Origin: Verrucomicrobiia bacterium
GTDB lineage: Bacteria; Verrucomicrobiota; Verrucomicrobiia; Opitutales; Cerasicoccaceae
Direction of reading: 5' to 3'
DNA length: 64,000 nt
NCBI GenBank assembly: GCA_030432235.1
Contig: JAUIHT010000007.1
Span: 1 to 64,000, forward strand
Part shown: positions 7,581 through 40,966 of the stretch, piece by piece
Layout: the number at the start of each line of letters is the position of its first letter
How positions within the stretch are numbered: the first letter of the stretch is position 1
Position numbers and translations under genes: made by a program
The notes under the pieces: generated by a model
Database searches by the model: none
Seen by the model: the letters and a program-made list of their open reading frames with translations, nothing else
What the model was told of the DNA's origin: nothing

Positions 7581-7678
7581 AAGCTGCTGCTTCGCGGTGG
7601 ACGCCCCCGGTCTTTTGTGCATAATACCCTCAGTATTCGGCGAGCAATCTCGCTGAATATCCAGACTACCTTCCAACC

Positions 7679-13125: not shown

Positions 13126-13218
13126 CAGGGATGGGGGTGTCATTTAGTATCAAGAGCCACAAAAGCACCATTGTGCGAGGCTGACGAAAGAGATAGTATA
13201 TGGGTACGCAACGCAATT

Positions 13219-13234
13219 TTGTGCAGGTGCTCAA
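13219..13234. promoter_or_regulatory. Class 1 operator in divergent promoter region 13126-13345
   Basis: TTGTGCAGGTGCTCAA, imperfect inverted repeat, 94 bp ahead of the LamG gene start at 13125. Same pattern as the site at 1919 but with GG at the centre. Confidence 0.65.
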
Positions 13235-13246
13235 ACATGGAGCGAA

Positions 13247-13259
13247 TGCAACGGTTGCT
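13247..13259. promoter_or_regulatory. Class 2 operator in divergent promoter region
   Basis: TGCAACGGTTGCT matches the odd palindrome at 6520 at all but the last base (allowing C or G at the centre). It lies between the two class 1 sites of this gap. Confidence 0.55.
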
Positions 13260-13295
13260 ACAAGAACGCGCACAGATATTGACGAAAAATCGTTA

Positions 13296-13311
13296 TTGTG
13301 CACGTTCACAA
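13296..13311. promoter_or_regulatory. Class 1 operator overlapping a likely -35 of the beta-helix gene
   Basis: TTGTGCACGTTCACAA. Its first half can serve as a -35 (TTGTGC, 13296-13301), with TTATAG at 13318-13323 as a -10 after a 16-bp spacer. Binding here would block RNA polymerase at the gene starting 13346. Confidence 0.7.
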
Positions 13312-13345
13312 TTGCAGTTATAGGAAAAGTTAACAAGCTAAAAAC

Positions 13346-18719: not shown

Positions 18720-21700
18720 ATGATGAAAGCAAGTTCCGTTGTCCCTGCCCGCCACCTCGCCGCTGTAACCGCTATTTTTTGGTTCGCCACAACACTCACC
18801 TCCATTGGCCAGGCCCCATCGGATCCACCGTCCGCCCTGGATCCCTTTACCTCTCCACTGCTCTCCTCCACTCCCGCCACAACCCTACTGGTCAGCTTCG
18901 ACGCGGATGGCCAGCCGGTTGTGAACCCGGGGTCACAAGCCGAGATGAAGGGGAGCTACAAACCGCTTCCCGCGGACCGGGAATTACCCGGCGCTAAAGG
19001 TATCGTGCGCATCCCGGCAGACCTCGACAACGACGAGTCGCAAGGCTGGCTGGAAATCAACCATGGAGCCGATTTACTGACTCAGGGGCCTTTCACGCTG
19101 GATATGGTCATGCGCGTCAGTCGTCGCGCTGACTCCATTCTGCAAGCCGGCGACGCCACTCATCCATTACGTTTTGCCCTTATCGACCGTGACGCCGGTT
19201 GGGTACGCCTGGTGTATCCTACAGATCAGGGCAAAAGTGAATCACTGGAGGTTTCCGGCGTTTTCGAAACCCCAGGCCCGCTGCGGCAGGACCGCTATCA
19301 GGTTTTCACACTCGCCTATGACGGCAAAGGAACTCTGTACGGTTATATCGACGGCCTTCCTTCATTTGATCTAAAGCTGAAGGGCGTAAAAGGAGCACTG
19401 CCACTCGGCGAGGGGCCACTCATCTTCGGCAGCTATGATCGCTGGAAAAGCCATTTTCAGGGAGACTTGGCTCAACTGCGTATCCAATCGACCTTTGCCC
19501 CCCCTCAACTTCGGCAGCTACTCCCGCTCGATCCCGCAGTTTTCGGTTGGCGCTTCGACTTCGGTCCGGATGGCGCACTAACCGAGCCAGGCTGGCTCAG
19601 GGTCACCCCCGGCGAAGTCCCTGCGCTGCTCACCTGGTCCAGCGCTCCCACCGAGGGATACGATGCCTGGTTTTTCCCCGATCGCTACAAAGCCAGCCCC
19701 GAAGCCGCCACAAAGCAGCACACCCGCCGCGCTGCTGATTGGGTAAGGCGCGACGGCCTGCTCGTCCCCGCAGGCGGCAGCCTCCATATCGATGTCCCGG
19801 CTGGCAGCTACGCTGTCTCCGTTATTATAGGCGACAATCGCAATAACACCACCACTGCGGAAGTGACAGCCAACGGCAAAGTCATTGGCCGAGACCTCGT
19901 CATCAACGTCGACAATACCAGCTACCCACTCAACCGAACCGCACGCGGTATCGTGACTGTCGACGCAGGCCAGGGTCTCGACATCGACTTCAATACAGTA
20001 AGCAGCAAAGGTCCGGCGCCCACTCATCTGCAGGGGGTCATCATCGAGCCCATCGCCCCGCTGCCCGTCAGCCGCCAGGGCGGCAAACTCGTCTGGGTTG
20101 GCAGCGGCAAGGCACCGGCCGGCTTCGACCAAGCTGCCGAGTTGTACAGCGCGCGTGACTTTTCCAGAGCCTTCGAAGCAGCCGGTCAAATCAGCGATCC
20201 CGTAGCACGCAACAGTACCCGTGCCTGGATCATGGGTTACCCCCGCCTCGTTAAAGGCGAGGATGTTTACCGCCTCGTACAGATGCAGGAGGACCTCGTC
20301 TCCGCTGCTCGGACCGATCCGGATAACATCGCTCTGCGCTACCTGCTTTCCAGTACCAATACGATGTACAATGCCGCGCTCGGCTATGCCTACCAGTGGA
20401 GCAACGGCGTGATTTACGGCCCCAATAAAGGGCGCCCCTGGCGCATCTCTGCCGACCTGGCCCTGAGCATCACCCCGGAAGAGCCCTGGTATGGCAACGC
20501 TCACCTGCTGGCCGGCTCCGCCATCTGGCAGGGCGGACAACAGAGCGGTGGTTACACTGCCCAGGGCGAATGGCTCAAGCCCTCCCGGCACCATGAATTT
20601 GCCACACCGATTCCCATCTTTCAGGAGGTTCTTGAAGTCTATCCAGATGCCAGCCTGGCCCACATATTCCTGGGCGAGGAAGTACCGGTTGAAAAGCAAA
20701 TCCCCATTCCGGAGGGAGCCCCTGAGTGGGCTGCGCTCCAGCACCGCGCTCTCATACGCCTGCTCGACACGCTGCACTACTGGCATGACGAGCGCATGGA
20801 CGAAGGCGGCCTCATGGGAGGGGGCTTCGGTGATGATGTCGAGATGATGCGCTGGTGGAATGTCGCCATCCTCGCGGCGGACGATGCCAAGGCCCGCGAT
20901 GGGTGGAATCGACTGACTGCGACCGGCTGGAAAAATCTGCGCCGGCAGCCCCTTGGCGACAAGATGTCCGACGCCGAGCACGCCGCTGAGGACTTCAGCG
21001 ATTCGCATTCCCTCCAACCCCTGCTGCAATTCGGTAAGCCTCAGTTCGAGGAGATGCTGCAACGCAATCGTCTGCCCCTACCCCTATTTAAGAATGTCCT
21101 CATGGACCGCTCGGCCGACGGTCACTTGATGTTCAAGAGCCACGTCTACTCGATTAACGCCAGCGACCCGCGCCCTGGAGATGTGCCTTACAACATACGC
21201 ACCATGCTGCCCCTTATCTGGTATTGCTATTTCCGGCCCGACGACACCGAAGCCACCGAAGTCGTCACCGAATATGCCCGTAGCTGGAAGGACGTCACCA
21301 TGGCCGCTACCGACGGAAAACCGGCCGGAATCACGCCCATGATGGTCCGCATGGACGATCACGGTAAGCTGCGCCTGGACTCCAGTGGAAATTATTCCGG
21401 CCCTCTCGTACTAACCGACGGCAGCACAGACTGGGTCTACCCCGGTTACTGGAGCTATGCTTATCCGAATGGCTACACCAACAACATTTACGACCTGTGT
21501 CTTGCCGCTTATGACCTGACCGGTGACCCAGCTTATCTGGAACCACTCAAGAAGGCCGCCGAATTTATACGCAACCATCAGGACCTCGCTCCCACAGCAG
21601 AAGAAACCATGCCGCATGGCGGCGTACTGGGCTCTACCTCAGGGCATGCCGTACCCCCTGCGTCCGAAGGAAAAGAGCGCGGCTCATTGGAGTGGGCGAT

Positions 21701-22367
21701 CGCCTACAACTGGTCCGGCCTGGCTCACGCCGCCGCCCAATACCGCCTGGCCACCGGCGATACGTCATTCGATGACGTGCTGCTCAAACACGGCGGCGCC
21801 GCAATCCGCACGCAGATTGGTACAGACCAAGCGCAATCCCAAGAGTCATTCGATGCCGCCGTCGAGCCAATGAACGAAGTCCTGCGCGCAACCCTGAAGA
21901 ACCTGGACTACAATGAAATACTCCGCACCGAACTAGGCCAAAGCACCGACCGCATCTGGGTGCCCGGCTCTCAAGCCATCCTGGCCGGTTACACCGGCAT
22001 GATTGCCGGCGTGCCACCCCTCACACGTCGCGGTGCGGAATTGCAATGGCCCACCTTCGCCGTCACCTGGGAGGAAACCGGACCGGACATCAGTGCTCTG
22101 GTTACTCATAATCAAAAGGACGGCCTAACTGTGATGCTCTACAACTTTGCCGAAACGCCCAAAGACATTGCCCTGCGCGTCTGGCGACTCAATCTCGGCA
22201 AATACCGCCTTACCCTTTCCCCGGCGCGAAACCTCGACCACACTGACTTAAAAGATGAAGTCGTTGATATTCGTGAGAAAGGCCAGCGCATCGAACTACA
22301 CATTCCCGCACGAGAAGAACTGCGTCTGTCTCTGAAAAGCGTTGAGTTAAGTGCACGAGACAATTGA
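18720..22367 (+). CDS. Large secreted multidomain protein, GGGxGDDVE family (copy 1)
   Basis: The 1215-residue protein starts at ATG 18720 (a second ATG follows at once) and has a signal peptide ending near SIGQA. A LamG-like domain (about 60-265) contains GPFTLDMVMRVSRR and YQVFTLAYDGKGTLYGYIDG. A galactose-binding/malectin-like beta-sandwich (about 285-445) includes VPAGSYAVSVIIGDNRNN. The C-terminal half is helical. It carries GGGFGDDVEMMRWWN near 699 and DAEHAAEDFSDSHSLQPLL near 750, both conserved in the proteins at 26145 and 33565. A short beta domain ends the protein. I do not recognise a named family for the helical part; conserved acidic and His residues suggest an enzyme, possibly a hydrolase or lyase. 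Confidence 0.7.
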   Translation: MMKASSVVPARHLAAVTAIFWFATTLTSIGQAPSDPPSALDPFTSPLLSSTPATTLLVSFDADGQPVVNPGSQAEMKGSYKPLPADRELPGAKGIVRIPADLDNDESQGWLEINHGADLLTQGPFTLDMVMRVSRRADSILQAGDATHPLRFALIDRDAGWVRLVYPTDQGKSESLEVSGVFETPGPLRQDRYQVFTLAYDGKGTLYGYIDGLPSFDLKLKGVKGALPLGEGPLIFGSYDRWKSHFQGDLAQLRIQSTFAPPQLRQLLPLDPAVFGWRFDFGPDGALTEPGWLRVTPGEVPALLTWSSAPTEGYDAWFFPDRYKASPEAATKQHTRRAADWVRRDGLLVPAGGSLHIDVPAGSYAVSVIIGDNRNNTTTAEVTANGKVIGRDLVINVDNTSYPLNRTARGIVTVDAGQGLDIDFNTVSSKGPAPTHLQGVIIEPIAPLPVSRQGGKLVWVGSGKAPAGFDQAAELYSARDFSRAFEAAGQISDPVARNSTRAWIMGYPRLVKGEDVYRLVQMQEDLVSAARTDPDNIALRYLLSSTNTMYNAALGYAYQWSNGVIYGPNKGRPWRISADLALSITPEEPWYGNAHLLAGSAIWQGGQQSGGYTAQGEWLKPSRHHEFATPIPIFQEVLEVYPDASLAHIFLGEEVPVEKQIPIPEGAPEWAALQHRALIRLLDTLHYWHDERMDEGGLMGGGFGDDVEMMRWWNVAILAADDAKARDGWNRLTATGWKNLRRQPLGDKMSDAEHAAEDFSDSHSLQPLLQFGKPQFEEMLQRNRLPLPLFKNVLMDRSADGHLMFKSHVYSINASDPRPGDVPYNIRTMLPLIWYCYFRPDDTEATEVVTEYARSWKDVTMAATDGKPAGITPMMVRMDDHGKLRLDSSGNYSGPLVLTDGSTDWVYPGYWSYAYPNGYTNNIYDLCLAAYDLTGDPAYLEPLKKAAEFIRNHQDLAPTAEETMPHGGVLGSTSGHAVPPASEGKERGSLEWAIAYNWSGLAHAAAQYRLATGDTSFDDVLLKHGGAAIRTQIGTDQAQSQESFDAAVEPMNEVLRATLKNLDYNEILRTELGQSTDRIWVPGSQAILAGYTGMIAGVPPLTRRGAELQWPTFAVTWEETGPDISALVTHNQKDGLTVMLYNFAETPKDIALRVWRLNLGKYRLTLSPARNLDHTDLKDEVVDIREKGQRIELHIPAREELRLSLKSVELSARDN

Positions 22368-22382
22368 GTCAGAATACCATTT

Positions 22383-22398
22383 TTGTACACGTGTGTAA
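22383..22398. promoter_or_regulatory. Class 1 operator upstream of LamG gene 22476
   Basis: TTGTACACGTGTGTAA, 15 bp after the preceding stop and 77 bp before ATG 22476. Its TTG begins an in-frame extension of the downstream gene that is very unlikely to be translated. Confidence 0.72.
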
Positions 22399-22475
22399 AT
22401 TTCGTTGACACAAAATATACGCCTCCCTTAACCTCCCAACTGTTTTCCCTCCTCCACAACCCCAACCTCTTGCCC

Positions 22476-23468
22476 ATGAATACAAAAAAGACCCTTATTC
22501 TCGGCAGTTTGGCTTTATTATCGTTTGGCCATTCTCATGCCCAAGTACCTGACACCAAGCTGTTTGAAGTCAATTTTCAGGCCGTAAACACCGTCGATAG
22601 CCCCAACTGGACGACCATCGGCGATATAGAGGAAGCCGGGGCCAGCGACCACCTTAACCTGACCGATGGCGCGACGGTTAACACCGGCTCGAACAATTTC
22701 GGCTTCAACGTTGCCCCCTCGGTAGCCGATGGCAGTGGCGTGTTAGGTGGAAGCACACAGTCATTCTCTTCCAATGGAGTCGCCGGTGAAATCCGCAAAT
22801 ATTGGCCACAAGCCTCATCCAATGCTGGGAATCTTCCCCGCGGCTTCACCGTGGCCATGGTCTTCAAGCCCACCTTCAGCGGCGTTCAGTCAACGAGGCG
22901 ATTCTTCCTCCAGGCCAGTGGTGGCAGTGGCTCTAACGATTCGACGAATACCAGCCTGAATGTCAATAACGGCGACGGTACCGTTTCTTTTAAACTAGGT
23001 CGAGGCACCAGCCAGAGCAACCCCGGGACTGAAGTCAAAACCACCAGCAGCATCGACTGGAACAGCGATAGCTGGTATTTTCTGGCCTTTGGCTGGGAAG
23101 AAAGCGATGCCGGAGGCGGCCTGACGGACCGTACCATGAATCTCTATATTCGAGAGTTCACCGATCAGGCATCGACCACCATCTACGAGAGTTCCATGAG
23201 CGAAGACATCACTCAATTTCCTGGCTATGACGGTACTCAGGGTTTTGAAATCGGTAATCGCATCAGTGTAACCGAGGCAGGACAAGGTAGCTACGCGCTG
23301 GTGCAGTTCTATAATGGCGGCTTTTCCCAAGCCAACTATGACTCGCTCTACTCAGCGCTCATTCCTGAAGCGGAAGTAACCGGAGTGATTTTTGGCGCCA
23401 TGGGATTGCTTGCATTCGCGGTATATCGACGCCGCAACCAAAAGAACAATCTCAATACCACTATGTAA
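22476..23468 (+). CDS. Secreted LamG-like protein with PEP-CTERM-like tail (degenerate motif)
   Basis: The 330-residue protein has a signal peptide (MNTKKTLILGSLALLSFGHS then HAQ). A LamG-like beta-sandwich contains GFTVAMVFKPTFSG and SWYFLAFGWEES. The tail has a short hydrophobic helix and YRRRNQKNN. The sorting motif reads PEAEV rather than PEPS, a variant that may weaken or change recognition. ATG 22476 is chosen because the signal peptide begins there and the in-frame upstream TTG lies in an operator. It is followed after 24 bp by a paralogue at 23493. It is probably a surface glycan-binding protein. Confidence 0.75.
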   Translation: MNTKKTLILGSLALLSFGHSHAQVPDTKLFEVNFQAVNTVDSPNWTTIGDIEEAGASDHLNLTDGATVNTGSNNFGFNVAPSVADGSGVLGGSTQSFSSNGVAGEIRKYWPQASSNAGNLPRGFTVAMVFKPTFSGVQSTRRFFLQASGGSGSNDSTNTSLNVNNGDGTVSFKLGRGTSQSNPGTEVKTTSSIDWNSDSWYFLAFGWEESDAGGGLTDRTMNLYIREFTDQASTTIYESSMSEDITQFPGYDGTQGFEIGNRISVTEAGQGSYALVQFYNGGFSQANYDSLYSALIPEAEVTGVIFGAMGLLAFAVYRRRNQKNNLNTTM

Positions 23469-23492
23469 TAACCCCTTAACACATGCTATAGG

Positions 23493-24449
23493 ATGAAGAT
23501 ATCACTACCCCCAAATTTCAATTTGTCCTCCCGCCCGGTCAACTGTCTGCTACTAACCATGACGTCTGTGGCATTCTCACTCCATGCCGATACGGTACTG
23601 GAGTTGGATTTTAAGAATTACGATTCTGGCGCCATGACAACCACAGCGACACAGGCCGCCGCTGGAGCCAACAATGTGCTGACTCTCGACGATGGCGGCA
23701 CCACCGGCGACGTGGACATCAATCCGTCGGCCAGTACCGGCATCTCCACCAACAATTCCGCACTGACCACCGGCTACTTCAGCAGTACAGGCACGCCGGA
23801 CCGGAACGGCGTGTTGGTAACGAGCCCCCCTTCCGGAACGGGTGAGTTTCGCGATTACTTTGGCACCACCAATGGCTGGGGAACCGGCACGATTGCCGTG
23901 GTCTATCGCCCCTCTTTCGACGGTCAGGCCCCAGGCAACCGCGCTTATCTCATGACGGATGGATTCGCCTCCGGCACCTCCAATTTCGCCATGGCGTTGT
24001 TAGTGGACAATGACGAAACCGTGCGCATCAATCTCCGTCAGGGCAATACCGACCCAGCGCCCCTGGTGGTCCGAAGCTCTGTCATAGACTGGTCCAGCAG
24101 CACATGGTATTTCATCGCCTTTTCGTGGGAAACAGGTCAGAATGCCAATGTCTACGTAAGGCCGATAGCAGAATCGTCCACGGGAGATTTTGCCACATCC
24201 GACACCACGCTGGTAGCAACCACTAGCATTAATCGCCCCATATACATTGGAAATCAGTACACCGATTCGGAAATATCCATGATGGGCGATATGGCTTATT
24301 TTGTTGGCACGGACCAATACACCGGTTCATCGGCAGAATTTGATTCCCTCTACAACTCCATTGTCACCGTCCCGGAACCCTCGAGTCTGCTCTACGCTTT
24401 GCTTGGCGCTTCCGGTGTTTTCTTTCTCCGCCGGAGAAAAAGAGCCTGA
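23493..24449 (+). CDS. Secreted LamG-like protein with PEP-CTERM tail
   Basis: The 318-residue protein has a signal peptide with an unusually long n-region (MKISLPPNFNLSSRPVNCLL) ending near LHA. A LamG-like fold follows (VLELDFKNYD, GTIAVVYRPSFDG, WYFIAFSWETGQNANVYVR). The C-terminus carries a textbook PEP-CTERM signal: VPEPSS, a hydrophobic helix, RRRKRA. It is closely related to the protein at 6618, sharing the LDFKNYD/LDFQNF opening and the repeated NSALTTGYF-type motif. It is the last gene of the run 18720-24449 and is followed by a strong terminator at 24491-24525 that lies inside the convergent gene. Confidence 0.8.
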   Translation: MKISLPPNFNLSSRPVNCLLLTMTSVAFSLHADTVLELDFKNYDSGAMTTTATQAAAGANNVLTLDDGGTTGDVDINPSASTGISTNNSALTTGYFSSTGTPDRNGVLVTSPPSGTGEFRDYFGTTNGWGTGTIAVVYRPSFDGQAPGNRAYLMTDGFASGTSNFAMALLVDNDETVRINLRQGNTDPAPLVVRSSVIDWSSSTWYFIAFSWETGQNANVYVRPIAESSTGDFATSDTTLVATTSINRPIYIGNQYTDSEISMMGDMAYFVGTDQYTGSSAEFDSLYNSIVTVPEPSSLLYALLGASGVFFLRRRKRA

Positions 24450-24479
24450 TTGCATTTCGTCGAATAACTCCGACGTTCG

Positions 24480-26120: not shown

Positions 26121-26144
26121 CGGCTTGTCTGCTGGAGGCTTTCT

Positions 26145-29100
26145 CTAGAGCCGCTGAAAAGAGAAGTAGCATTGCTGCTTCGAGGGCACACTGATGCGGA
26201 AAAGCTGCCCTTTTTCCTTCAACTCAAAGTCCTGACTGACCAACGGGGCGCCTTCCGGTGCGTAGTCTGGCGCCGATAATAGCTGGAAGCGGTATTGCCC
26301 GGGTTTCAATCGCCAAAGATGGGCGCCAATCTCCCGGTCACCTTCCGCAAAATTATAGACGTAACCGTCGAGCTTGGTAACCTGATTGGAGCGCACCAAG
26401 GCGGCGACATCCGGTCCCGTATCTGTCCAGGTCACACCAAAGAGCGGCCAGGCCTCTTCCTCCCCTCGCATGGTGGGAGGCGGTGTCTGGGATACGTCAC
26501 CCGTGGAGATGGACTCGACAAAGTCCATGCCCGGCACCCAAACGCGGTCAGTCGATAGCGGCAGTTTGGTGCGCAGCAGCTCGTTGTAGTCCAGCGTGCC
26601 GAGGACATCTTTCTGGTAAGGCTCAAGAGCGGCCACCGCATCGGCCATCTGCTGCGGGTTCTGCGCCCGCTCCGCCAGTATCTGGAAGCGGGTGTAGGCT
26701 GGCCCGTGCTTAAGCAAGGTTTCGTCGTAGCTGGTATCTCCGGTAACGAGGCGATACTTGGCTCCGGCCTTGGCCAATCCAGCACGGTTGATACGGATAG
26801 CCCATTCCAGCGAACCACGTGGATATTGACTGGAATCGTAATCGCCACTGGCTTCACTGGCAATGTGTGTGGTCATGCCACCGCTACTGGTATTGATATG
26901 GCCAGCGTCGCCTTCTCCCAACGTACCAAGGAACTCAAGCGCCTTGCGGTGAGGGTCGAGGAAACTTTCATCACCAGTCAGCTCATAGGCGGCGATAAGC
27001 AAGTCGTAAATCTTATCGGTATAGCCTCCCGGATACTCGTAGCTCGCATAACCAGGGAAGACCCAATCGCGATTTTTTTTGCCCTCCTTCAGAATGATAC
27101 TGGAGCGATCGAAGAGAATCATCATCGGCGTAATACCCGCAGGCTTTCCGTCGATTTCCGTCATGGTCATATCACGCCAGTTCCTGGCATAGGCGACGAC
27201 AACATCCGTCACTTCTTTATCTTCAGGATGGAGATAAGCATAATTGATTAACGGCAGCATAGTCCGGATATTGTAAGGCGCATCACCGTCCCGGGGATCG
27301 GGCCCCAGGCGCGAATACACATGACTCTTGAACATCAGGTAGCCCTCCGGATTCACGCCCATCAGATTGTCTGGAAGCACCTCGATAAGTCCTCGTGAGC
27401 GCGCGGCATACTCGTCCTCTTTCGGAGTCCCGATGACCAGCAGCGGCAGCAAGGCATGGCTATCGCTGAAGTCTTCGGATTCGTGCTCGGCATCATCCGG
27501 CGTATCGTCCATGGACTTTTTGTCGGAGGCCCTCCAGGCCGTATTGGCCAGCCGCGTCCAGCCGTCGAGCGCCTGCTGATCATCCGCGACGACAATGGCT
27601 GTCTTCCACCAGCGCATCATCTCAACATCGTCTCCCAGGCCTCCGCCCATGGTGCCATCCGCTACCATACGCTCCGTGTACCAATAGTTGATGAGGTCCA
27701 CGAGTCTCACGAGGGCGCGATGCTGCAAGACTGCCCATTCCGGTGCCCCGTCAGGAGTCACAATTTCTTTACCCACAGGCACCTTGTAATCGAGGAGAGG
27801 CTCCCCAAGGCCTTTCTCCGATTCGAGCGGGGAACGCGTCGCGGATCCAAGAAAGATTTTGGGCAGCCCGGCGTCGGGGTATTCCTCCAATACATGCCGA
27901 AAAATCGGAGGAGGCGGAGCATAGGCCCGATGCTTGCTCGGCTTACGCCACTCGGTGTCGCTCACGTAGCCACCGCTTTGTTGGCCATATTGCCAGATAA
28001 AATTACCCGCCAAAGTCTGGGCGTGACCATAGTAAGGTTCACCCGGCGCAATCTGCAGCGCCAGATTTAAACCCTCCCGCCATACGCGGCCCTTGGGCGC
28101 GCCGTAAATATGGGTAGTGCCTTGCTGAAAAATGTAGGCAAGGGCCGCATGCCACATGAGGTAGGTTTGTTGCAAAAGATAATTCGCCGCCAAATCGTCG
28201 GGATGCTGTCGCAGGTAGCCCAGCAATTCATCGTAGATCACTTCCAGACGTTCGAGCGTAACCTTGTCCGTTAAATCAGGATAACCAACTATCCAGGCGC
28301 GTGCAGTGGCTTGGGCAATGACATCGTGAATGCCCGCGGTGAGCTTCCAGGCTTCATCTCGCTGTCCCGCCGCATAGGCGTTGGCAACGGCCTCAAAGCC
28401 AGCCGGTGCGCTACCCTGCCCCATCCAGACCAGTTTACCTTCCTTGCGGCTGACGGGCAGTGGAGCCACCGGCTGCACGGTTACCGCCATGAGGGAGACC
28501 GGCTCGCTATTTTTACTTTCCGCGGAGATCGTCAGCGCTTCATTTCCCTTAACAGAGACTAGTCCACGAACGGTACGATCATCGGAATTCGCATAATCGT
28601 CGGGCAAGGTAATGAGCTCGGTGCCTAATGTGACACCGTTGGCCGTGATGTTGGTGACATATTGATTCTTGTCCGGGCTTCCGGTGGAAACCGTGACCTC
28701 GTAAATGCCCGCAGGAACCTGCACAACAAACTCGCCTCCGGAGGGCATCAGGACGCCATCCCGCAAAAGCCAACTGCGAGTGCGACGCGCACCGCGCTTG
28801 GTAGCCACCTCTGGCTTGGCCCAGTAACGGTCACCCACAAACCAAAAATCCACTTCACCCTTCGTTGGCTGCATCCAGCCATACTCCCCACCTTGCTGGA
28901 GTACCGTCTCCGTCGTGACCTGGGTGTAGCCTGGTTCCACCGGTGTATCCAACGGGCCCATGTCGAAAGCCAGCGCGCCCGGACCCACAGCATTCAGAGG
29001 CTTGGGCGCATCCGGCGCATGAACTCCGGATTGTACACGCAGCTGAGCCAAGGCACCGACAAAGGTGGTATGTCCGCGAGACACCTGGCCAAAAAGCAGT

Positions 29101-29828
29101 GGGCCATCTTTCAGGGCAAGCTTACCCGCCACACCGTCGATGCCGAACTCAAGGCAACGGATGCCATCGATATAAAAGACGAACTGCCCCTTTTCGTCAT
29201 AGGTCAGCGTCAGCAATTGATAAGCGTTACGACGCAACGGACCGGCCTTCTCCAAGGCCCCTGGCATCTCGCTGCGAATCACCGTGCCGTCCTTATTCGG
29301 CGCGTACACCTCCAAAACACCGGCATTGCGATCCAGCAACCCCCACAAAAACGCCGTGCCCTCCCCGGCTTCGAGGAAGTGATCGTCTCCCTGCGAGAAC
29401 CGCATGATGACATCGATGGTAAAGGACCCTTGGCTCAGCAAGGCGGCTCCATCCTTTACCTTCAGCTGTGCCGGTTTCTTGGACTCGGCCACAATCTGCA
29501 CCGCTCCGCTGAAGCCCGGTAACTCGAGTGCCATAGGCACCGGTTGCCATTGTCCCACGAGGGTAGCCTGCAAACCAGCACTACCCATCGTGACCGGAGT
29601 ACCTTGAGCATCAAAGCCAATCAGCAAACTGGTATCCGCGGTCGCCTTCAGGGGCACGACTGCATAGGCGGGATAGGCCGTTACTGGCTCCGGCCCCCTG
29701 CTGGGAGGCCCGGCATGGAGAGCGCCGGTGAAAAATATTGCCTGAAAGGCACAAGCAGTAAGGCCGCTGAGAAATAGCTGGTTACGGCAATATTTCTCGA
29801 CAAAAGGGATCGGGGAAGGGATTTTCAT
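26145..29828 (-). CDS. Large secreted multidomain protein, GGGxGDDVE family (copy 2)
   Basis: About 1227 residues with the same layout as the 18720 protein: an N-terminal signal anchor (hydrophobic LFLSGLTACAFQAIFFTGAL, ending near LHAG), a LamG-like domain (about 80-280), a galactose-binding-like sandwich (about 300-465, with VPAGIYEVTVSTGSPDKN), then a helical C-terminal region. Shared signatures are GGGLGDDVEMMRWWK near 729 and DAEHESEDFSDSHALLPLL near 781. Near 690 it has an extra loop absent from copy 1. ATG 29828 is preferred over the upstream in-frame TTG at 29834. Its operator (29845-29860) also faces the esterase gene at 29912. Function unknown; probably a polysaccharide-degrading enzyme. 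Confidence 0.7.
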   Translation of the reverse strand: MKIPSPIPFVEKYCRNQLFLSGLTACAFQAIFFTGALHAGPPSRGPEPVTAYPAYAVVPLKATADTSLLIGFDAQGTPVTMGSAGLQATLVGQWQPVPMALELPGFSGAVQIVAESKKPAQLKVKDGAALLSQGSFTIDVIMRFSQGDDHFLEAGEGTAFLWGLLDRNAGVLEVYAPNKDGTVIRSEMPGALEKAGPLRRNAYQLLTLTYDEKGQFVFYIDGIRCLEFGIDGVAGKLALKDGPLLFGQVSRGHTTFVGALAQLRVQSGVHAPDAPKPLNAVGPGALAFDMGPLDTPVEPGYTQVTTETVLQQGGEYGWMQPTKGEVDFWFVGDRYWAKPEVATKRGARRTRSWLLRDGVLMPSGGEFVVQVPAGIYEVTVSTGSPDKNQYVTNITANGVTLGTELITLPDDYANSDDRTVRGLVSVKGNEALTISAESKNSEPVSLMAVTVQPVAPLPVSRKEGKLVWMGQGSAPAGFEAVANAYAAGQRDEAWKLTAGIHDVIAQATARAWIVGYPDLTDKVTLERLEVIYDELLGYLRQHPDDLAANYLLQQTYLMWHAALAYIFQQGTTHIYGAPKGRVWREGLNLALQIAPGEPYYGHAQTLAGNFIWQYGQQSGGYVSDTEWRKPSKHRAYAPPPPIFRHVLEEYPDAGLPKIFLGSATRSPLESEKGLGEPLLDYKVPVGKEIVTPDGAPEWAVLQHRALVRLVDLINYWYTERMVADGTMGGGLGDDVEMMRWWKTAIVVADDQQALDGWTRLANTAWRASDKKSMDDTPDDAEHESEDFSDSHALLPLLVIGTPKEDEYAARSRGLIEVLPDNLMGVNPEGYLMFKSHVYSRLGPDPRDGDAPYNIRTMLPLINYAYLHPEDKEVTDVVVAYARNWRDMTMTEIDGKPAGITPMMILFDRSSIILKEGKKNRDWVFPGYASYEYPGGYTDKIYDLLIAAYELTGDESFLDPHRKALEFLGTLGEGDAGHINTSSGGMTTHIASEASGDYDSSQYPRGSLEWAIRINRAGLAKAGAKYRLVTGDTSYDETLLKHGPAYTRFQILAERAQNPQQMADAVAALEPYQKDVLGTLDYNELLRTKLPLSTDRVWVPGMDFVESISTGDVSQTPPPTMRGEEEAWPLFGVTWTDTGPDVAALVRSNQVTKLDGYVYNFAEGDREIGAHLWRLKPGQYRFQLLSAPDYAPEGAPLVSQDFELKEKGQLFRISVPSKQQCYFSFQRL

Positions 29829-29844
29829 AAGCAAACAAGGCGTA

Positions 29845-29860
29845 TTGTTCTCGTGAACAA
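29845..29860. promoter_or_regulatory. Class 1 operator between 26145 operon and SGNH gene
   Basis: TTGTTCTCGTGAACAA, nearly perfect inverted repeat with central CG. It lies 16 bp from the minus-strand ATG (29828) and 51 bp from the plus-strand ATG (29912), so it can serve both. Confidence 0.72.
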
Positions 29861-29911
29861 TTTTGCCATGTTCAAGCCTAAAACGATAGTTACCTCTATG
29901 TTTCTCATCTC

Positions 29912-30532
29912 ATGAGCCCTACCCTATACCTCATTGGCGACAGTATCGCCGTACACTACGGCCCATATTTACGCACGTTTCTCGAACCTTCCTGGCAGTG
30001 TCGCCTGCCTCCCGGACGCGACGAAGCGCTGCAAAATCTCGACCATCCAACCGGCGCCAACGGCGGTGACTCCCGGCGACTTCTCCAGCTCATTACCAGC
30101 ATCACCGCTGAAGAAACGTCATCCTGCGGTTGGTTGGCATTTAACTGCGGTCTTCACGATATACGCCGGAGTCACAAAGATTCCGAGGCACAGGTGCCTC
30201 TGGCTGAATATCGTGAAAACCTGGATTCGATGACCGCACGCCTGCTGGCTTCGCCATGGAAACCTATCTGGATTACAACCACACCCGTGGATGACAGCAT
30301 CCATAACGACTTGCATCCTGTGGACTTTCAACGCTTTCACCAGGACGAGCTTGCCTACCGGGAAGCCGCTTTAACACTCATGCAAAGCAAGGACATCGCC
30401 ATTTGTGACCTAGGCGCATTCACCGCCGGCTTTGGCCAGGAAGCCTATTGCGATCATGTTCATTACCGAGCGGACTTTCGCCGCCTTCAGGCCGCTTATC
30501 TGGCAGGTTGGCTTCAGGGACATGTATTCTAA
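29912..30532 (+). CDS. SGNH/GDSL-type hydrolase, probable carbohydrate esterase
   Basis: The 206-residue protein has no signal peptide. SGNH blocks are visible: the nucleophile in IGDSIA (Ser11), a Gly in the GANGGDS region, Asn in FNCGLHDIR near 73-80, and the catalytic pair in YCDHVHY near 180-185 (Asp and His three apart). This small fold is typical of acetyl- and other acyl-esterases acting on sugars. It is cytoplasmic, so it may deacylate imported oligosaccharides. The following esterase gene has its own operator only 60 bp downstream. Confidence 0.8.
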   Translation: MSPTLYLIGDSIAVHYGPYLRTFLEPSWQCRLPPGRDEALQNLDHPTGANGGDSRRLLQLITSITAEETSSCGWLAFNCGLHDIRRSHKDSEAQVPLAEYRENLDSMTARLLASPWKPIWITTTPVDDSIHNDLHPVDFQRFHQDELAYREAALTLMQSKDIAICDLGAFTAGFGQEAYCDHVHYRADFRRLQAAYLAGWLQGHVF

Positions 30533-30549
30533 AGAAAGCCTTGACCAAA

Positions 30550-30568
30550 AATGGGCACGTGTTTCATT
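30550..30568. promoter_or_regulatory. Class 1 operator upstream of SASA esterase gene
   Basis: AATGGGCACGTGTTTCATT, inverted repeat on CACGTG, 23 bp before ATG 30592. The outer arms deviate from the TTGT/ACAA consensus. Confidence 0.58.
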
Positions 30569-30591
30569 TTCTAAAAACCCTCTGTAATCCG

Positions 30592-32073
30592 ATGAAAATC
30601 CCCTTTATTCTCGCCCTATTGGGCATTGTTCTTCTTTCCCCCGTCCAAGCCGACGTAGACAACGCCTTTCGCTTGGCCAATATCTTCAGCGACCATATGG
30701 TCCTGCAAGCGGATCAACCCCTTCGCATCTGGGGCTGGGATACTCCCGAAACAACCGTCACCGTGACCTTCGCGGATAAATCGACTCAGGCCAAGGCGGC
30801 GCAGGATGGACGTTGGGTCGCCATGCTCTCCCCTACGGATACCGGCGGCCCCTATACCTTGAGCGTACAAGGTAGCGGAAGCACCACGCTGGAGGACGTT
30901 TGGATCGGGCAGGTATGGATTGCCGCCGGGCAGTCCAACATGGCAATGCGTGCTCAGTACTGCGACGAGGCCGAGCAAATCGCGGCCGATAGCAAGGAGC
31001 TTCCCTTGCTGCGTATTACGAGCATACCACAGGGCTACGCCGACGAACCGCAGACGGATATTGAGAAACGAGCGCGCTGGCGTTTGGCCAGCGAAGGTAC
31101 GGGCGGCTTTTCCGCCGTCGGGGTGAGCTTCGCCAACGATCTGCAGGCAGGACTGGGGCAGCCGGTCGGCATCATACAGGTAGCGGTGGGAGGCTCAAAA
31201 ATCGAAAGCTGGGTACCCAGGGATGTGCTTGCGGGCAACCCCACGACAGCCGATTGGATCGGGCGCTACGATAAGAAGCTCAAGGAATACGAAGCCGCGA
31301 AAGCAAAAGGCAAAACCGAGATGAGGGAGCCTGGCCGCAATAAATACGCCGCCTTCCTTTATAACAAAATGGCCGCACCCTTGCAGGACCTCTCTGCTTC
31401 CGGCATAATCTGGTACCAAGGCGAGTCCAACAGCGGTGATAGCGACGACTACATCCCGCTCTTTCGGGAGTGGATTTCCCAATGGCGCGAGATGACGCAC
31501 AATCCCAATTTACCCGTCTTCATCGTTCAGCTCCCCTTCTACCACGAGCGCCAGACCGAGCCGGTGGAAAAGGGCTCGTGGGGCTACTTCCGCTATGTAC
31601 AGGCCAAAGTCACCGAGGCCGTACCACACAGCAACTATGTCGTAACCCTGGATACCGGCAATGCCGAGGATGTCCACCCACGGCAAAAGCAAGTCATCGG
31701 CCAACGCCTGGCGGCACTCGCCCTCGAAACCGTCTACGGCAAAGACCTGCCCGGTCAGCATCCCGAAGCAGTATCCTTAAAAGCCATCGGGCAAAACCGT
31801 TACAGCATAGGCTTTGAAAATCTCTACGGCGGACTCAAAACTTTCGACAATGAAGCACCTCGAGGCTTAGCCGTACAAGACACCGATGGCGAATGGCATT
31901 GGGCACAGGGCCTGTCTATCGACAAAGGCACCTTGACCTTCCAGCCACCGACAGGAGGACTCAAGGCTGTGCGCTACAACTGGGCCAATAACCCCGTGGG
32001 CAACCTAGCCAACGCCGCCGGCCACCCGGTCGGGCCTTTCGAGATTACGCTCGAGACCGCAGGGCAGGATTAA
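30592..32073 (+). CDS. Secreted sialate O-acetylesterase (SASA) family protein
   Basis: The 493-residue protein has a signal peptide (MKIPFILALLGIVLLSPVQA). An N-terminal beta domain follows (FSDHMVLQADQPLRIWGWDT), then an SGNH-like SASA domain. Motifs are AAGQSNMAMRAQY near 111-123 with the nucleophilic Ser, IIWYQGESNSGDSDDY near 272, and NAEDVHPRQKQVIGQRLA near 358 with the catalytic Asp-His. The family removes O-acetyl groups from sialic acid and, in environmental bacteria, from other acetylated glycans, so the polymer is probably acetylated. ATG 30592 is chosen because the signal peptide starts there and an operator lies just upstream. It ends 1 bp before the stop of the convergent sulfatase gene. 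Confidence 0.9.
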   Translation: MKIPFILALLGIVLLSPVQADVDNAFRLANIFSDHMVLQADQPLRIWGWDTPETTVTVTFADKSTQAKAAQDGRWVAMLSPTDTGGPYTLSVQGSGSTTLEDVWIGQVWIAAGQSNMAMRAQYCDEAEQIAADSKELPLLRITSIPQGYADEPQTDIEKRARWRLASEGTGGFSAVGVSFANDLQAGLGQPVGIIQVAVGGSKIESWVPRDVLAGNPTTADWIGRYDKKLKEYEAAKAKGKTEMREPGRNKYAAFLYNKMAAPLQDLSASGIIWYQGESNSGDSDDYIPLFREWISQWREMTHNPNLPVFIVQLPFYHERQTEPVEKGSWGYFRYVQAKVTEAVPHSNYVVTLDTGNAEDVHPRQKQVIGQRLAALALETVYGKDLPGQHPEAVSLKAIGQNRYSIGFENLYGGLKTFDNEAPRGLAVQDTDGEWHWAQGLSIDKGTLTFQPPTGGLKAVRYNWANNPVGNLANAAGHPVGPFEITLETAGQD

Positions 32074-32074
32074 G

Positions 32075-33532
32075 TCAGGCCACCGGCAGGGAAAAACGCG
32101 TCCACTCCGGTGGTGTCTCTAGCTCAGGCAACTCAAGCTGCGGAATGAAGGCGTGACCGCAGCCGCGCAAGTAGCGGATGCGCGTATTGTAGTCGGTCAG
32201 ACCGGCACGGCTCTCTTCGTAAGACCAGACGGAATCCCGGCGCGCACGCATTTCCTCCATTAGCTTGGGCTGAGACGCTGCAAGATCGTGGTGCTCGCAG
32301 GGGTCGGCATCCAGATCGAAAAGATGCTCATGACCCAGCTCCGGGACATAGACATACTTCCAGTGCCCGGTCCACAGACCAAAGACATGTCGGCAACCTT
32401 CGACGCCGATGCTTTCCGCCCAAACAAAGTCATCACTGCGCGCAATAGGCACTCCCTCACGAAAAGACTTAACCAGGCTGACTCCCTGTGCTTTGGGCAA
32501 AGGCGGTGCGTCAGCCAGATCCAACAGAGTCGGTGCAATGTCCAGCAGGCTGACCACCTCATCACAAACAGTGCCCGGCACAGTCGTATCCGGCGCCGCT
32601 ACAATGAACGGCACGCGGGCAGAGGGTTCGCTCAAGTTCGTCTTAAACCAGAGCCCGGCATCGCCGGTCATGTCTCCGTGATCGGACGCGTAGATGACAA
32701 CCGTGTTGTCGAGCTGACCGCTCTCCTCCAACACCTCAAGGATACTACCGATATTTTCGTCTAGCTCGGTGCACAATCCAAAGTAGGCCGCCAAGGCACG
32801 GCAGTGCTGCTCATCGGACACATCGGTCAGGTTCTGCTTCTCCAAGAAGCACCTCAAATATGGCTGCGCTACCAGCATGGACTCTCGCTCCTCAACGGTG
32901 GAAGCCCGCACCAAAGGCAGGTATTTTTCAAAAAGCTCCGGACGACAAACATAAGGGTTATGCGGGCAGATAAATCCAGAAACGAGACACCAGGGCCTCT
33001 CAGCCCCGGCATGCGAACGAATAAACTCCGCGGAATCCTCTGCCACACGGTGGTCAAAGTACTGAAACCCCTGCCGGCCCGGACCCGAGGCCCTCAAGGC
33101 ATAGGCGTTATTGGCCGTCCAGCGCTCACCGGAGGCCGAGGCACGAACCTCCTCGTCCAGCAGGCCTTCGGTACACTCCCCGGTAAGCCTGCTCTCAAAG
33201 CCGTGAAACTGGTCCGGCCCGCAAAAGTGCATCTTGCCACTCAGAACCGCTTCATAGCCCGCCGCACCCAGACCGTGCGCGAAAGTCGGGATGGTGGTAT
33301 CCAGCACATTGCCATTACCCCACACGCGGATGCGGTCACTGGACTGCCCCGTCATCATGGTCATACGTGATGGCACACAGAGCGGATTGGCACTGTACGC
33401 GCGGGTGTAACGCACGCCACGCTCAGCCAGACGATCCAGGTTCGGCGTTTCCAGCCAGGGATGTCCGGCACAGCCAAGAGCGTCGGCCCTATGCTGGTCG
33501 GAAATAATGAACAGGATGTTAGGACGTTTCAT
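32075..33532 (-). CDS. Type I sulfatase, cytoplasmic (no signal peptide)
   Basis: The 485-residue protein begins directly with the sulfatase core (RPNILFIISDQHRADALG, metal-binding Asp). It carries the formylglycine site LCVPSR with Cys52 as the modified residue, followed by MTMMTGQ. Later motifs include LSGKMHFCGP and NTVVIYASDHGDMTGDAGLW (metal Asp-His) with a downstream Lys in LWFKTN. Sulfatases of this S1 type remove sulfate esters from sugars. The missing signal peptide implies action on imported oligosaccharides. It is the last gene of the minus-strand operon 37090-32075, 32 bp after the multidomain gene. A maturation enzyme is not encoded in the window. Confidence 0.93.
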   Translation of the reverse strand: MKRPNILFIISDQHRADALGCAGHPWLETPNLDRLAERGVRYTRAYSANPLCVPSRMTMMTGQSSDRIRVWGNGNVLDTTIPTFAHGLGAAGYEAVLSGKMHFCGPDQFHGFESRLTGECTEGLLDEEVRASASGERWTANNAYALRASGPGRQGFQYFDHRVAEDSAEFIRSHAGAERPWCLVSGFICPHNPYVCRPELFEKYLPLVRASTVEERESMLVAQPYLRCFLEKQNLTDVSDEQHCRALAAYFGLCTELDENIGSILEVLEESGQLDNTVVIYASDHGDMTGDAGLWFKTNLSEPSARVPFIVAAPDTTVPGTVCDEVVSLLDIAPTLLDLADAPPLPKAQGVSLVKSFREGVPIARSDDFVWAESIGVEGCRHVFGLWTGHWKYVYVPELGHEHLFDLDADPCEHHDLAASQPKLMEEMRARRDSVWSYEESRAGLTDYNTRIRYLRGCGHAFIPQLELPELETPPEWTRFSLPVA

Positions 33533-33564
33533 AAAAGACTACTGTCGCCTGCCGAAAAGCAGTA

Positions 33565-36282
33565 TCAACCGGCGACCGGACTGATTTCAATACGGCTCTC
33601 CGTCCGGCCTGGCACATTGAAGTACAGCCACTGGAGTTTTCCATCGTGAGTCACCGTCTGAACACTTTCTGAGCCATCCGGCGATTGGTAGCGAATGTGG
33701 TAGCGCCCCTTGGGTAAAGTACGCAGGCTCAGGCCCACCTCGGCTGTTTTTTTCAGAAACGAATAAAGCCGGATGGAAACGCTGTCCCGTGAAGTGCGAT
33801 GCGCCAAGACCGCAAAGTCCAGCGAAGGGAACTGCCAGGACACCGCAGCATCCGGCGGTAACGGATCGCCCCACCCTCCGGTTGCCCCCGTCATGAGTGT
33901 GTAAACGGCGTTGGCCGTCGGAATGTAGACCCGGTCCGTGGAAAGCGGCTCGCTGGTCCACATGGGAAAGTCACGCCCCAGAGCGGCGTCCAGATAAGCC
34001 TGGGAAACGGCGGTAACGGCCTCGGGGTTACCCGTCAGTTGATAGTCTGCCACTGCGGCTTCAGCCATATCAACAACAGGAATGATATCGCCCGTCTCCT
34101 GAAAATGCGAGGCCGCCGCCGCCACCTGCTCTTTCAGCGAAGCTTGCTTACCGCCAAATGAATAATCGCTGGGCTGGCCCAGATGCACGCCCGAGCCTTG
34201 GGACAATCGGGCCAGAAGAGGCAGGAACATGCCCTTGGCCTTCCATTGTGAAAGTAACCAACGCTGATAGTCAGCCGAAGGCATCTCATCGTCGGCCGGG
34301 GCTACCGGGACCGTACTCAGGGAGTCACCCTCACGGGCCCGAGTCAGGCATGCCTCGACCGGCTCCAGATACTTTGCATCTCCCGTCCATTCGTACGCGG
34401 AAATGAGGAGCTGGAGAATGCGTGTTTGATTGTTCCGGTTGTAATCGAAGTAAGTCCAGTCCATGCCCGTCTTATACCAGTCCCGGGTATTACCGGTGCC
34501 GAGCTGTCCTGTTTTCCAATACACCGCCGCCGGGCTGACACCGGCGAGCTTTCCACCCTCCTCGCGCAATGTTGCTTCCCGCCAGGCATCCGCGATCTCC
34601 AACATGGTCGCCTGGACATCCGGCTGGTCTGACAAGGAGGTCAACCAGGTCAGACCTTTGTAAGCACGGGTATGATAAGGCACATCGCCTTCCAGCGACG
34701 GGCTCATTTCCGCACCTTCAAGCCCTATATAGGAGGACTTCATGCGGCGGTAACCCTGCGGGTCGAGAGCGCTCCATTTGTCAAGAACCAGAGGCAGGAG
34801 CTTGCGATTTCGCTCCACATACTTCGAGTCATCTGGCTGTAAAAAAAGCCCAACCGGCTGGGTGTCCGCCGTCGGTTCCGAGGAGTGTTCAACATCCTCG
34901 ATACGCTTCATGTATCCGCCCTGCAAGCCGCCATAAGCATGCTCCCAAGCGCCATCGATCAGGCGCATGACGGTCGCCTCAGCCTCGGGACTGGCCTGCC
35001 CCACAGCGATAACCGTGCCCCAGTTGCGGAGGATTTCCACGTCGTCACCCCACCCTCCGCCCAGGTCGCCTCTAGGCGTCTGGCGATGAGCTCCCCACCA
35101 GCCAATAATATCGAGGATGCGAATGTAGGTCTCGATTTGCGTTACCGCCCAGGCCGGCGCGCCGGTAGTATCTGGCTGATGACTGGGGGACCAAGTCTGA
35201 CGTTCTCCCAGATAGGCCGCAAGGACGGGTGAATCATAACCGCGCTCTTTGAGCAGGCGAAGGTCGGCCTTCCCCAAGTCCATTACGGTCTCGTTGTGTT
35301 GCTCGCGCCCATTCCAATAGAGGCAACGGCCATACTCCAGCACCGCCTTGGCCCAGAAAGGATGGTTCTGCGGCAAATCCGCTTTGAGGATAATGGTACG
35401 ACCCATGCGGTGAGGCCGGGCCCGACGGGGATCGGCAACGACCGTCATCATCTGTGATGCCTCGGTCAAAGAAAGTGGACCACCGGTACCGGGGTCGCTC
35501 TCCGGATGCGCTTGCAGGTACTTGAGCAACTGCGCATTCGCCTCCATGTAGTCTTCCGCAAAGGGATCGGCAAGCCGCTCCAGCAGGGCTTGCACCGCAG
35601 TATCTTTAACCTCAGGGACAGTCGTGACCGGTATCTCCTTTTGCGTGGGAGGCTTGGTATAAATCGCGATTGAATCGTAACTGAGAAGGCTGTTGTTCCC
35701 GGAAAGGTAAATACTATCGAAGGACTCGTAGGGCAGATCGAACGGCATGTCTCCCGCCAAGAGGGGCTCACCGTCTACGGATAGTGTCACATGGCGTCCC
35801 TCCATAGTCGCCTCCAAGGTATACGTCACGCCAGGCTCGGGCAATGGCCCGTTGTTGCGCGCGATGTACTCCCAGCCAAAGTAAGCGATGAGATTACGAG
35901 TGTTGCGCATACGCCCCAAAGCAGGCCAAACGTCTGCCCCGGTCGCCTCGACACCGTTGCTGCGCAGGCGCATGCCATGCTGAACGATACCACGGCCGGC
36001 AGTAGGCGCCCAGGCTGCGGTCCACACGATTTTCTGGTCGCTGGGCAGGGGCTCACGGAATTGCACCATGGCTTTGCCGGGACCAGAGAGGATGAGTTTA
36101 CCATCCTCGATACGCATCTCGGTTTTGCCGAGCGGTATCCAGTCCACAAGCGCATCGTCAGAGTTGAAGTCCGTTTGATAAACCAGAGTCCAGCCTTCTG
36201 ATTCTGGATCATCACTAGCGCAAACCCAGCCTGTGCTAGCGCCAACAAACATGAGGAATAAGATAGAGAGTCGAAGTAACAT
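33565..36282 (-). CDS. Secreted multidomain protein, GGGxGDDVE family (copy 3)
   Basis: The 905-residue protein has a signal peptide (MLLRLSILFLMFVGASTGWV to about CAS). Its N-terminal concanavalin-like domain (about 30-235; YQTDFNSDDALVDWIPLGKT, MRIEDGKLILSG) resembles the DUF1961-like protein at 51868, not the LamG domain of copies 1 and 2. The C-terminal helical region matches those copies: GGGWGDDVEILRNWG near 407 and DVEHSSEPTADTQPVGLF near 464. A final small beta domain ends in a typical enzyme-like C-terminus. The swap of N-terminal binding modules around a constant helical core supports the core being the catalytic part. ATG 36282 is preferred to upstream in-frame starts because of the signal peptide. 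Confidence 0.7.
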   Translation of the reverse strand: MLLRLSILFLMFVGASTGWVCASDDPESEGWTLVYQTDFNSDDALVDWIPLGKTEMRIEDGKLILSGPGKAMVQFREPLPSDQKIVWTAAWAPTAGRGIVQHGMRLRSNGVEATGADVWPALGRMRNTRNLIAYFGWEYIARNNGPLPEPGVTYTLEATMEGRHVTLSVDGEPLLAGDMPFDLPYESFDSIYLSGNNSLLSYDSIAIYTKPPTQKEIPVTTVPEVKDTAVQALLERLADPFAEDYMEANAQLLKYLQAHPESDPGTGGPLSLTEASQMMTVVADPRRARPHRMGRTIILKADLPQNHPFWAKAVLEYGRCLYWNGREQHNETVMDLGKADLRLLKERGYDSPVLAAYLGERQTWSPSHQPDTTGAPAWAVTQIETYIRILDIIGWWGAHRQTPRGDLGGGWGDDVEILRNWGTVIAVGQASPEAEATVMRLIDGAWEHAYGGLQGGYMKRIEDVEHSSEPTADTQPVGLFLQPDDSKYVERNRKLLPLVLDKWSALDPQGYRRMKSSYIGLEGAEMSPSLEGDVPYHTRAYKGLTWLTSLSDQPDVQATMLEIADAWREATLREEGGKLAGVSPAAVYWKTGQLGTGNTRDWYKTGMDWTYFDYNRNNQTRILQLLISAYEWTGDAKYLEPVEACLTRAREGDSLSTVPVAPADDEMPSADYQRWLLSQWKAKGMFLPLLARLSQGSGVHLGQPSDYSFGGKQASLKEQVAAAASHFQETGDIIPVVDMAEAAVADYQLTGNPEAVTAVSQAYLDAALGRDFPMWTSEPLSTDRVYIPTANAVYTLMTGATGGWGDPLPPDAAVSWQFPSLDFAVLAHRTSRDSVSIRLYSFLKKTAEVGLSLRTLPKGRYHIRYQSPDGSESVQTVTHDGKLQWLYFNVPGRTESRIEISPVAG

Positions 36283-39724: not shown

Positions 39725-39771
39725 AATAAATAGCCAGCGGCAAAAAGTCTGCCCAGGCAACGAGCCTCCCG

Positions 39772-39784
39772 TGCAACGGTTTCT
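39772..39784. promoter_or_regulatory. Weak class 2 operator candidate upstream of GH63-like gene
   Basis: TGCAACGGTTTCT keeps the left arm and centre of the odd palindrome (11 of 13 positions). It lies 48 bp upstream of ATG 39724, in the 68-bp gap after the propeller gene. Confidence 0.35.
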
Positions 39785-39792
39785 CAGGGCGG

Positions 39793-40959: not shown

Positions 40960-40966
40960 CGTGAAG

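Follow-up and report, generated by a model that had tools for sequence, protein, structure and literature searches.

Three large proteins encoded in a 64,000-nucleotide window of a Verrucomicrobiia bacterium genome share a core domain that, by sequence comparison, is without a named family in Pfam, NCBIfam, or the PDB sequences, CAZy models lying outside this comparison. The window is the whole stretch of DNA that was analyzed, and it lies on one contig of a 5.7-Mb, 42-contig genome. We regard it as an evenly balanced question whether the core represents an unclassified, secreted enzyme superfamily that acts on uronic-acid polysaccharides, with lyase activity likelier than hydrolase activity. 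Somewhat more tentatively, the core may found a polysaccharide-lyase superfamily composed of two clans, with an acidic, His-containing and possibly metal-assisted site on a GH76-like toroid, cleaving uronic-acid polysaccharides. If such a superfamily exists, the core could also be the missing first cut in GH88 or KduI/KduD loci without a recognized lyase, a proposal held with the same reserve, recognized lyases having been sought by Pfam or annotation in part of those loci.

Copy 1 (18720..22367, forward strand) is 1215 amino acids long and is built of a LamG module, a beta-rich module, linker helices, the toroid core, and a beta domain. Copy 2 (26145..29834, reverse strand) is 1229 amino acids long from a TTG start, or 1227 from the ATG at 29828. 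Copy 3 (33565..36282, reverse strand) is 905 amino acids long from the ATG at 36282, which was used as the start, the mechanically called open reading frame (ORF) beginning at 36411; it consists of a DUF1961-like N-terminal module, the toroid core, and a beta domain. All three proteins are probably secreted, the N-terminus of copy 1 having been judged by eye. In BLAST comparisons, copies 1 and 2 are 43.8% identical over 1231 positions, which is their whole length (E about 0), copies 1 and 3 are 24.1% identical over 689 positions (E 1.8e-29) with the core shared, and copies 2 and 3 are 27.4% identical over 558 positions (E 7.6e-29). The three copies are therefore homologous, their BLAST similarity being far beyond chance.

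Two motifs mark the core. Motif 1 is GGGFGDDVEMMRWW in copy 1 (20817..20858, forward strand), GGGLGDDVEMMRWW in copy 2 (27606..27647, reverse strand), and GGGWGDDVEILRNW in copy 3 (35020..35061, reverse strand); motif 2 is DAEHAAE in copy 1 (20970..20990, forward strand), DAEHESE in copy 2 (27474..27494, reverse strand), and DVEHSSE in copy 3 (34876..34896, reverse strand). An initial annotation of the window had described three proteins, at 18720, 26145, and 33565, that share both motifs, and this is borne out by the reading frames, the coordinates, and the BLAST homology. The distance between the motifs, given there as 51 to 57 residues, is 51 residues in copies 1 and 2 and 55 in copy 3 when counted from start to start. 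The D/S-rich stretch that was said to follow motif 2 is present in copies 1 and 2 (DFSDSH) but is not clearly so in copy 3, where the sequence is PTADTQ.

Pfam searches with the three window proteins and 15 relatives found no match to the core above a cut-off, only accessory modules and weak matches. NCBIfam gave no match for the three window proteins, and comparison of the core with PDB sequences gave nothing above the cut-off, the best matches having E-values of 0.74, 0.12, and 0.34. These results agree with the earlier suggestion of a new or little-described family. In the part of the literature that was accessible, searched with the motif letters in one form only, no description of the family was found, and a recent description is possible.

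The predicted fold of the core is a helical toroid of the (alpha/alpha)6 type, followed by a C-terminal eight-strand beta domain, in both structural models. The AlphaFold model of the copy 1 core (m45a75bf2eb44) covers 608 residues with a predicted local distance difference test score (pLDDT) of 85.1 and a predicted template modeling score (pTM) of 0.88; the toroid spans residues about 669 to 1092 (20724..21995, forward strand). The model of copy 3 (m1f7ce7d595b2), made from a 61-row alignment, has a pTM of 0.73 and is confident from about residue 300 onward, with the toroid at residues about 376 to 808 (33859..35157, reverse strand). For copy 2, the core region plus flanks (26151..28364, reverse strand) matches the core profile with an E-value of 7.6e-150, in a profile that itself contains copy 2. 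Secondary structure assignment of the models with DSSP places the eight-strand domain at residues about 1115 to 1207 of copy 1 (22062..22340, forward strand) and at 33577..33849 (reverse strand) in copy 3. The C-terminal region had previously been described as helical, which holds for the core, but the beta domain forms the actual C-terminus.

Comparison of the predicted structures with known folds, the initial annotation having proposed (alpha/alpha)n lyases, gave toroid matches at about 10% identity, with GH76 and GH88 nearest. GH76 alpha-1,6-mannanases (BcGH76 Aman6 and Salegentibacter GH76A), which form an (alpha/alpha)6 toroid, are the best-ranked fold for both models. VIA-align gave a Z of 14.1 for the copy 3 model with GH76 4boj_B (280 residues, 4.1 Å, 9% identity) and of 13.8 for the copy 1 core model with GH76 (289 residues, 3.9 Å, 8% identity). 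The GH88 enzyme UGL ranks second (Z 12.8 for copy 3 and 12.4 for the copy 1 core), AGE-type epimerases reach Z 10.3 to 11.9, and the PL2 pectate lyase YePL2A (6ojl) reaches Z 10.7 over 351 residues of the copy 3 model. With Foldseek, the copy 1 core matched GH76 6y8f_A (E 6.6e-5) and UGL (E 5.1e-4), and full-length copy 3 gave no match at E 0.001 or better. Because mostly helical models reach Z-scores near 14 by a common arrangement of helices, such matches indicate a fold class and not family membership.

The core differs from each of the families that share its fold. Identity to GH76 is 6 to 11% in the alignments listed, and the core is longer, with extra helices and the C-terminal beta domain. 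GH76 enzymes possess an adjacent Asp pair (D136/D137, and D125 variants, in PDB titles); the core has a D413-D414 pair, which may or may not correspond to it in place. The GH76 profile PF03663 did not match any of the three window proteins at E-values up to 1, gave an E-value of 0.057 for one of the 15 relatives, and produced a single match over the cut-off across 39 genomes. The GH88/GH105 unsaturated uronyl hydrolases belong to the same toroid class as the core (UGL Z 11.5 to 12.8) and GH88 genes lie near several members of the family; they are encoded by a separate gene in those loci, and GH88/GH105 enzymes are not known to have a C-terminal beta domain. Assignment of the core to GH88/GH105 was rejected, with no PF07470 match in the three proteins or 15 relatives and an hhalign probability under 3%. 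PL2 is likewise a helical toroid encoded by a separate gene in the window, and PF06917 matched neither the three proteins nor the 15 relatives. The PL26 rhamnogalacturonan exolyase (PcRGLX) acts on a uronate polymer and is a sizeable secreted protein of several domains; it too was rejected, with no Pfam match and an hhalign probability for the core of 0.1% against the PcRGLX_2nd domain of three sequences and of 15.7% over 118 columns against a mixed set of six longer ones. PL26 structures are absent among the fold matches listed, which is uninformative on likeness.

Conservation was assessed in 35 distinct proteins from 62 frames, which were collected through protein similarity without use of the motif and are numbered here after copy 3; their columns were taken from a profile built on motif-gathered rows, and several rows are cut by locus ends. 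Conservation in the alignments of 58 loci is partly forced, since the contig rows were gathered with the pattern [GD]DD[VC]EM[WLM]R. W378, G405, and D414 are kept in all 35 proteins and D413 in 34; D463, H466, and E469 are kept in 34 of 34 covered rows, D783 and R784 in 24 of 24, and K578 in 18 of 23. The proteins fall into two clans, one with E416 (18 of 35, of which 17 have E465 and D473, the L158 protein being without letters at those two positions) and the other with D416, L465, and N473 (17 of 35). Clan II includes LamG proteins on Asticcacaulis, Sphingomonas, and Novosphingobium plasmids. Common to both clans is a motif set of D-D-x-E/D, D..H..E, and D-R, plus a mostly conserved Lys, and we infer that these invariant positions together make up a single active site. 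It is highly improbable that the core is instead a non-catalytic scaffold or glycan-binding toroid: no member is known to have an activity, but the seven residues D, D, D, H, E, D, and R are almost completely conserved in both clans and across many phyla, as would be expected of an active site rather than of a scaffold. An argument from helix order, placing the site on one face, fits four of the five motif loops and fails for the last (D783-R784), and is not claimed. One relative departs from the common pattern: L172:2040-3527 in genome G692 is seemingly without the middle of the core (profile positions 5-222, then 482-655), and this gene, also represented as L158, has a Gly replacing the first Asp.

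The family is far from confined to the window, and its description as having three members was too narrow. A fourth copy, 61.7% identical to copy 1, is encoded on contig C11 of the same genome (frame L017:8404-12066), and relatives are widespread. Because the C11 stretch also carries counterparts of five further window genes, the genome holds two versions of the gene set that includes copy 1. A quick tree built from 70 rows groups copies 1 and 2 with the C11 copy and the relative L169 and leaves copy 3 by itself on a long branch of unsure placing. A profile of 58 short-form relatives detects copy 3 with an hhalign E-value of 1.5e-48, and copies 1 and 2 with 8.9e-58. Counting the query's own genome in each case, copy 3 found matches in 9 of 88 relative genomes (the match in G005 is to the N-terminal module only and that in G076 is weak) and in 19 of 372 genomes of the order, copy 2 in 15 of 387 genomes of the phylum, and the profile in 10 of 296 Bacteroidota genomes, including the seed genome and one weak match. 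A scan of genome contigs with the pattern gave 238 matches; 121 of these proved to be relatives, 80 relatives were retained, and 58 entered the alignments. The relatives come from the Verrucomicrobiota, Planctomycetota, Armatimonadota, Hydrogenedentota, Bacteroidota, Omnitrophota, KSB1, Acidobacteriota, Desulfonema magnum, and others.

The genes beside these relatives bear on the substrate. Late and extended loci were read with local profiles, and the labels GH2, GH20, GH28, and PL22-like denote likeness to Pfam-scanned proteins. Among ten Bacteroidota loci, which exclude two of the six genomes matched in a later search (G1000, locus L215, and G1037), a GH88 gene is present in the stretch at nine, and at the tenth (L197) KduI directly follows the core. 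Six of them (L191-L196) share a layout of TonB receptor, second protein, core, Nramp-like transporter, GH2-like gene, further genes, and GH20-like gene; the GH88 profile found nothing in their initial, shorter stretches, and after an extension of about 12 kb a GH88 gene was found beyond the GH20 gene in all six, together with a GH28-like gene in two (L219 and L222). In L197, UxaE and PfkB genes precede the core, KduI and a short-chain dehydrogenase directly follow it, and GH2-like and GH28 genes and a UxaC-like fragment extend to the locus edge. L198 encodes two GH88 proteins, a PL22-like protein adjoining the core, and GH2-like and GH28-like proteins, and L214 also has a GH88 gene. The core of G1008 is split over two contigs, with GH88 near one part (L217), a PL22-like gene adjoining the other (L216), and a GH28-like gene. 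G1000 gave a weak GH88-profile match (E 3.6e-7).

Similar neighbors occur elsewhere. In the KSB1 locus L084 the core is directly preceded by a PL22-like gene, which shares 57% identity with the one in L198, and is followed by two GH28 genes; in the Verrucomicrobiota locus L018, GH28 and GH88 genes flank the core on either side, with a GH2 gene further away; a GH88 gene adjoins the core in the clan-II locus L023; and L169, whose core is of the copy 1/2 type, has a UxaE-like gene nearby (E 5.7e-8). Around the clan-II member of a Novosphingobium capsulatum plasmid (L175/L176) are uxaC, an altronate dehydratase family gene, kduI, kduD, and GH43; the gene table, which is incomplete, lists no lyase over about 90 kb. 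Across 100 unextended loci (1.72 Mb), GH88 occurs five times in four loci, compared with about 0.6 expected at 0.35 per Mb, an excess computed post hoc against a rough background taken from 29 genomes of the phylum to which the window belongs, whose counts are uneven. Of 91 loci, 18 have sulfatases, and a GH4 gene lies in the flanks of L055. A protein of about 640 amino acids lies near the core in four loci (L018:17189-19126, L019:11315-13252, L171:4188-6140, and L215:4685-5461, the last cut by the contig end), the copies being 42 to 72% identical; the L018 copy belongs to no Pfam family (GH9 E 0.057), and the protein is perhaps a second unclassified glycan enzyme.

GH88, KduI, and KduD act on unsaturated uronates, which are products of lyases, and we rank a lyase over a hydrolase for this reason. 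Both had been put forward for the core in the initial annotation, and the GH88, KduI, PL22-like, and GH28 neighbors of the relatives strengthen that proposal for what is a presumptive activity. A rather unlikely alternative is that the core represents a new glycoside hydrolase family with a GH76/GH88 fold, in which two of the invariant carboxylates would serve as acid and base and the substrate would be a glycan containing uronic acid or hexosamine. Many of the invariant residues are indeed carboxylates, and the GH2, GH20, and GH28 genes in several Bacteroidota loci resemble exo-acting hydrolase sets; the acids are, however, accompanied by a His and an Arg that are invariant and by a Lys that is mostly conserved, and the GH88, KduI, and PL22-like neighbors imply unsaturated uronates in many loci.

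Several observations weigh against a uronate lyase. The nearest folds, GH76 and GH88, are both hydrolases. Within the 80 genome-contig loci, clear uronate genes occur only in L046 (GH88), L084 (GH28 and PL22-like), and L095 (UxaC-like), with a weak GH28 match in L054 and a weak PL22-like match in L065, and KduI occurs in none of them. A nearest-neighbor scan of 94 of 107 proteins found no common or dominant partner. Local profiles for GH88, KduI, and PL22-like proteins gave no match in the window or the C11 stretch, and the uronate genes found beside relatives may serve other lyases, PL22-like proteins included. The uronate case is thinner for the window's own copies, for which it consists of the nearby PL2 and GH4 genes and the UxaE-like neighbor of L169.

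The Desulfonema magnum member (L087:7567-15419) also counts against a degradative lyase: its gene overlaps those of glycosyltransferases, the operon-like run that they form also includes a BcsQ-like gene and a sigma-54 regulator, and a sulfotransferase gene is close by. This exopolysaccharide-type operon would suit a core that modifies a chain without cutting it, either as an epimerase-like enzyme or as one that processes the exopolysaccharide which the producer itself makes. The toroid also occurs in AGE-type epimerases, and copy 2 has a weak match to the C5-epimerase family PF06662 (E 0.23). We nevertheless consider this improbable: the AGE-type fold ranks under GH76, the Bacteroidota and Verrucomicrobiota contexts, with their receptors and hydrolases, look degradative, and lyases also occur in synthesis operons.

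For a polysaccharide lyase, the following mechanism can be proposed. The N-terminal LamG or DUF1961-like modules would probably keep the polysaccharide bound during cleavage by the toroid. The substrate would most likely be a uronic-acid-containing polysaccharide and the chemistry most likely beta-elimination, and for both we rely on the neighbor genes of relatives together with the PL2 and GH4 genes in the window. The conserved acids and the His would bind either a metal or the carboxylate of the uronate, the Arg or Lys would assist in removing the proton at C5, and the GH88, PL22-like, KduI, and KduD proteins encoded beside many relatives would handle the resulting unsaturated ends. If confirmed, this widespread family would add a depolymerase class for the breakdown of algal, plant, and bacterial acidic glycans, and the Bacteroidota, KSB1, and Novosphingobium loci hint at its substrates and downstream enzymes.

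A constant helical core with varying N-terminal modules, as first described, is supported across the three copies; the LamG modules of copies 1 and 2 and the DUF1961-like module of copy 3 are accessory and distinct from the core. The LamG-like module of copy 1 (residues 108-257; 19041..19490, forward strand) matches PF13385 with an E-value of 2.5e-5 and 24.9 bits, just below the curated cut-off of 27.6; that of copy 2 (residues 126-270; 29025..29459, reverse strand) exceeds the cut-off at 29.6 bits (E 8.7e-7). The galactose-binding-like modules that had also been assigned to these two copies are hinted at by weak PF21254 matches (E 0.14 in copy 2 and 0.018 in one of 15 members). The DUF1961-like module of copy 3 was recovered indirectly: its direct PF09224 match is weak (E 0.22), and the link runs through residues 2-70 (36073..36279, reverse strand), which are 38% identical (E 4e-8) to the window ORF at 51871-52755, itself a strong DUF1961 match (PF09224 E 5.7e-48). 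A separate small LamG protein adjoins the clan-II core in L022 (5624-6349), from the window's order, and on the Novosphingobium plasmid (L175:16485-17444; E 1.6e-37).

The core was also suggested to be a main depolymerase of this locus, which goes beyond the evidence, PL2, GH110-like, GH4, GH63-like, and GH123-like genes being present too. The PL2 pectate-lyase-like gene lies at 14449..16113 (reverse strand; PF06917 E 3.2e-138) and the GH4 gene at 45919..47313 (reverse strand; PF02056 E 1.4e-48, PF11975 E 2.7e-36). The genes with C11 counterparts near the fourth copy encode a GH123_N-like protein (8825..12331, reverse strand; 67.6% identity), a LamG protein on the reverse strand and a 357-amino-acid protein on the forward strand (together 12361..14419; 63.5% and 55.6%), and GH63/MGH1-like and PD40 proteins (38483..41022, reverse strand; 72.0% and 60.3%). 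The C11 counterpart of the 357-amino-acid protein has a weak beta-helix match, and the PD40 protein (39796-41022) gave no match to the local profile when considered as a PL22-like enzyme. Further window genes encode a peptide-type ABC transporter, a DUF6259 protein, a GH110-like protein, SASA and GDSL esterases, five sulfatases, and a second GH123-like protein. Elsewhere in the genome, contig C15 carries a PL26-type (PcRGLX_2nd) match at 7677-7889 (E 3.9e-8, 71 profile positions).

A 1375-amino-acid protein encoded at 41646-45773 of the window matches no Pfam family at E 0.001, and the other loci compared hold no relative of it at E 1e-5. Three related small proteins (6519-7580, 22383-23468, and 23493-24449) are 26 to 33% identical and probably secreted, and the C-terminus of the last resembles, by eye, a PEP-CTERM-type sorting tail.

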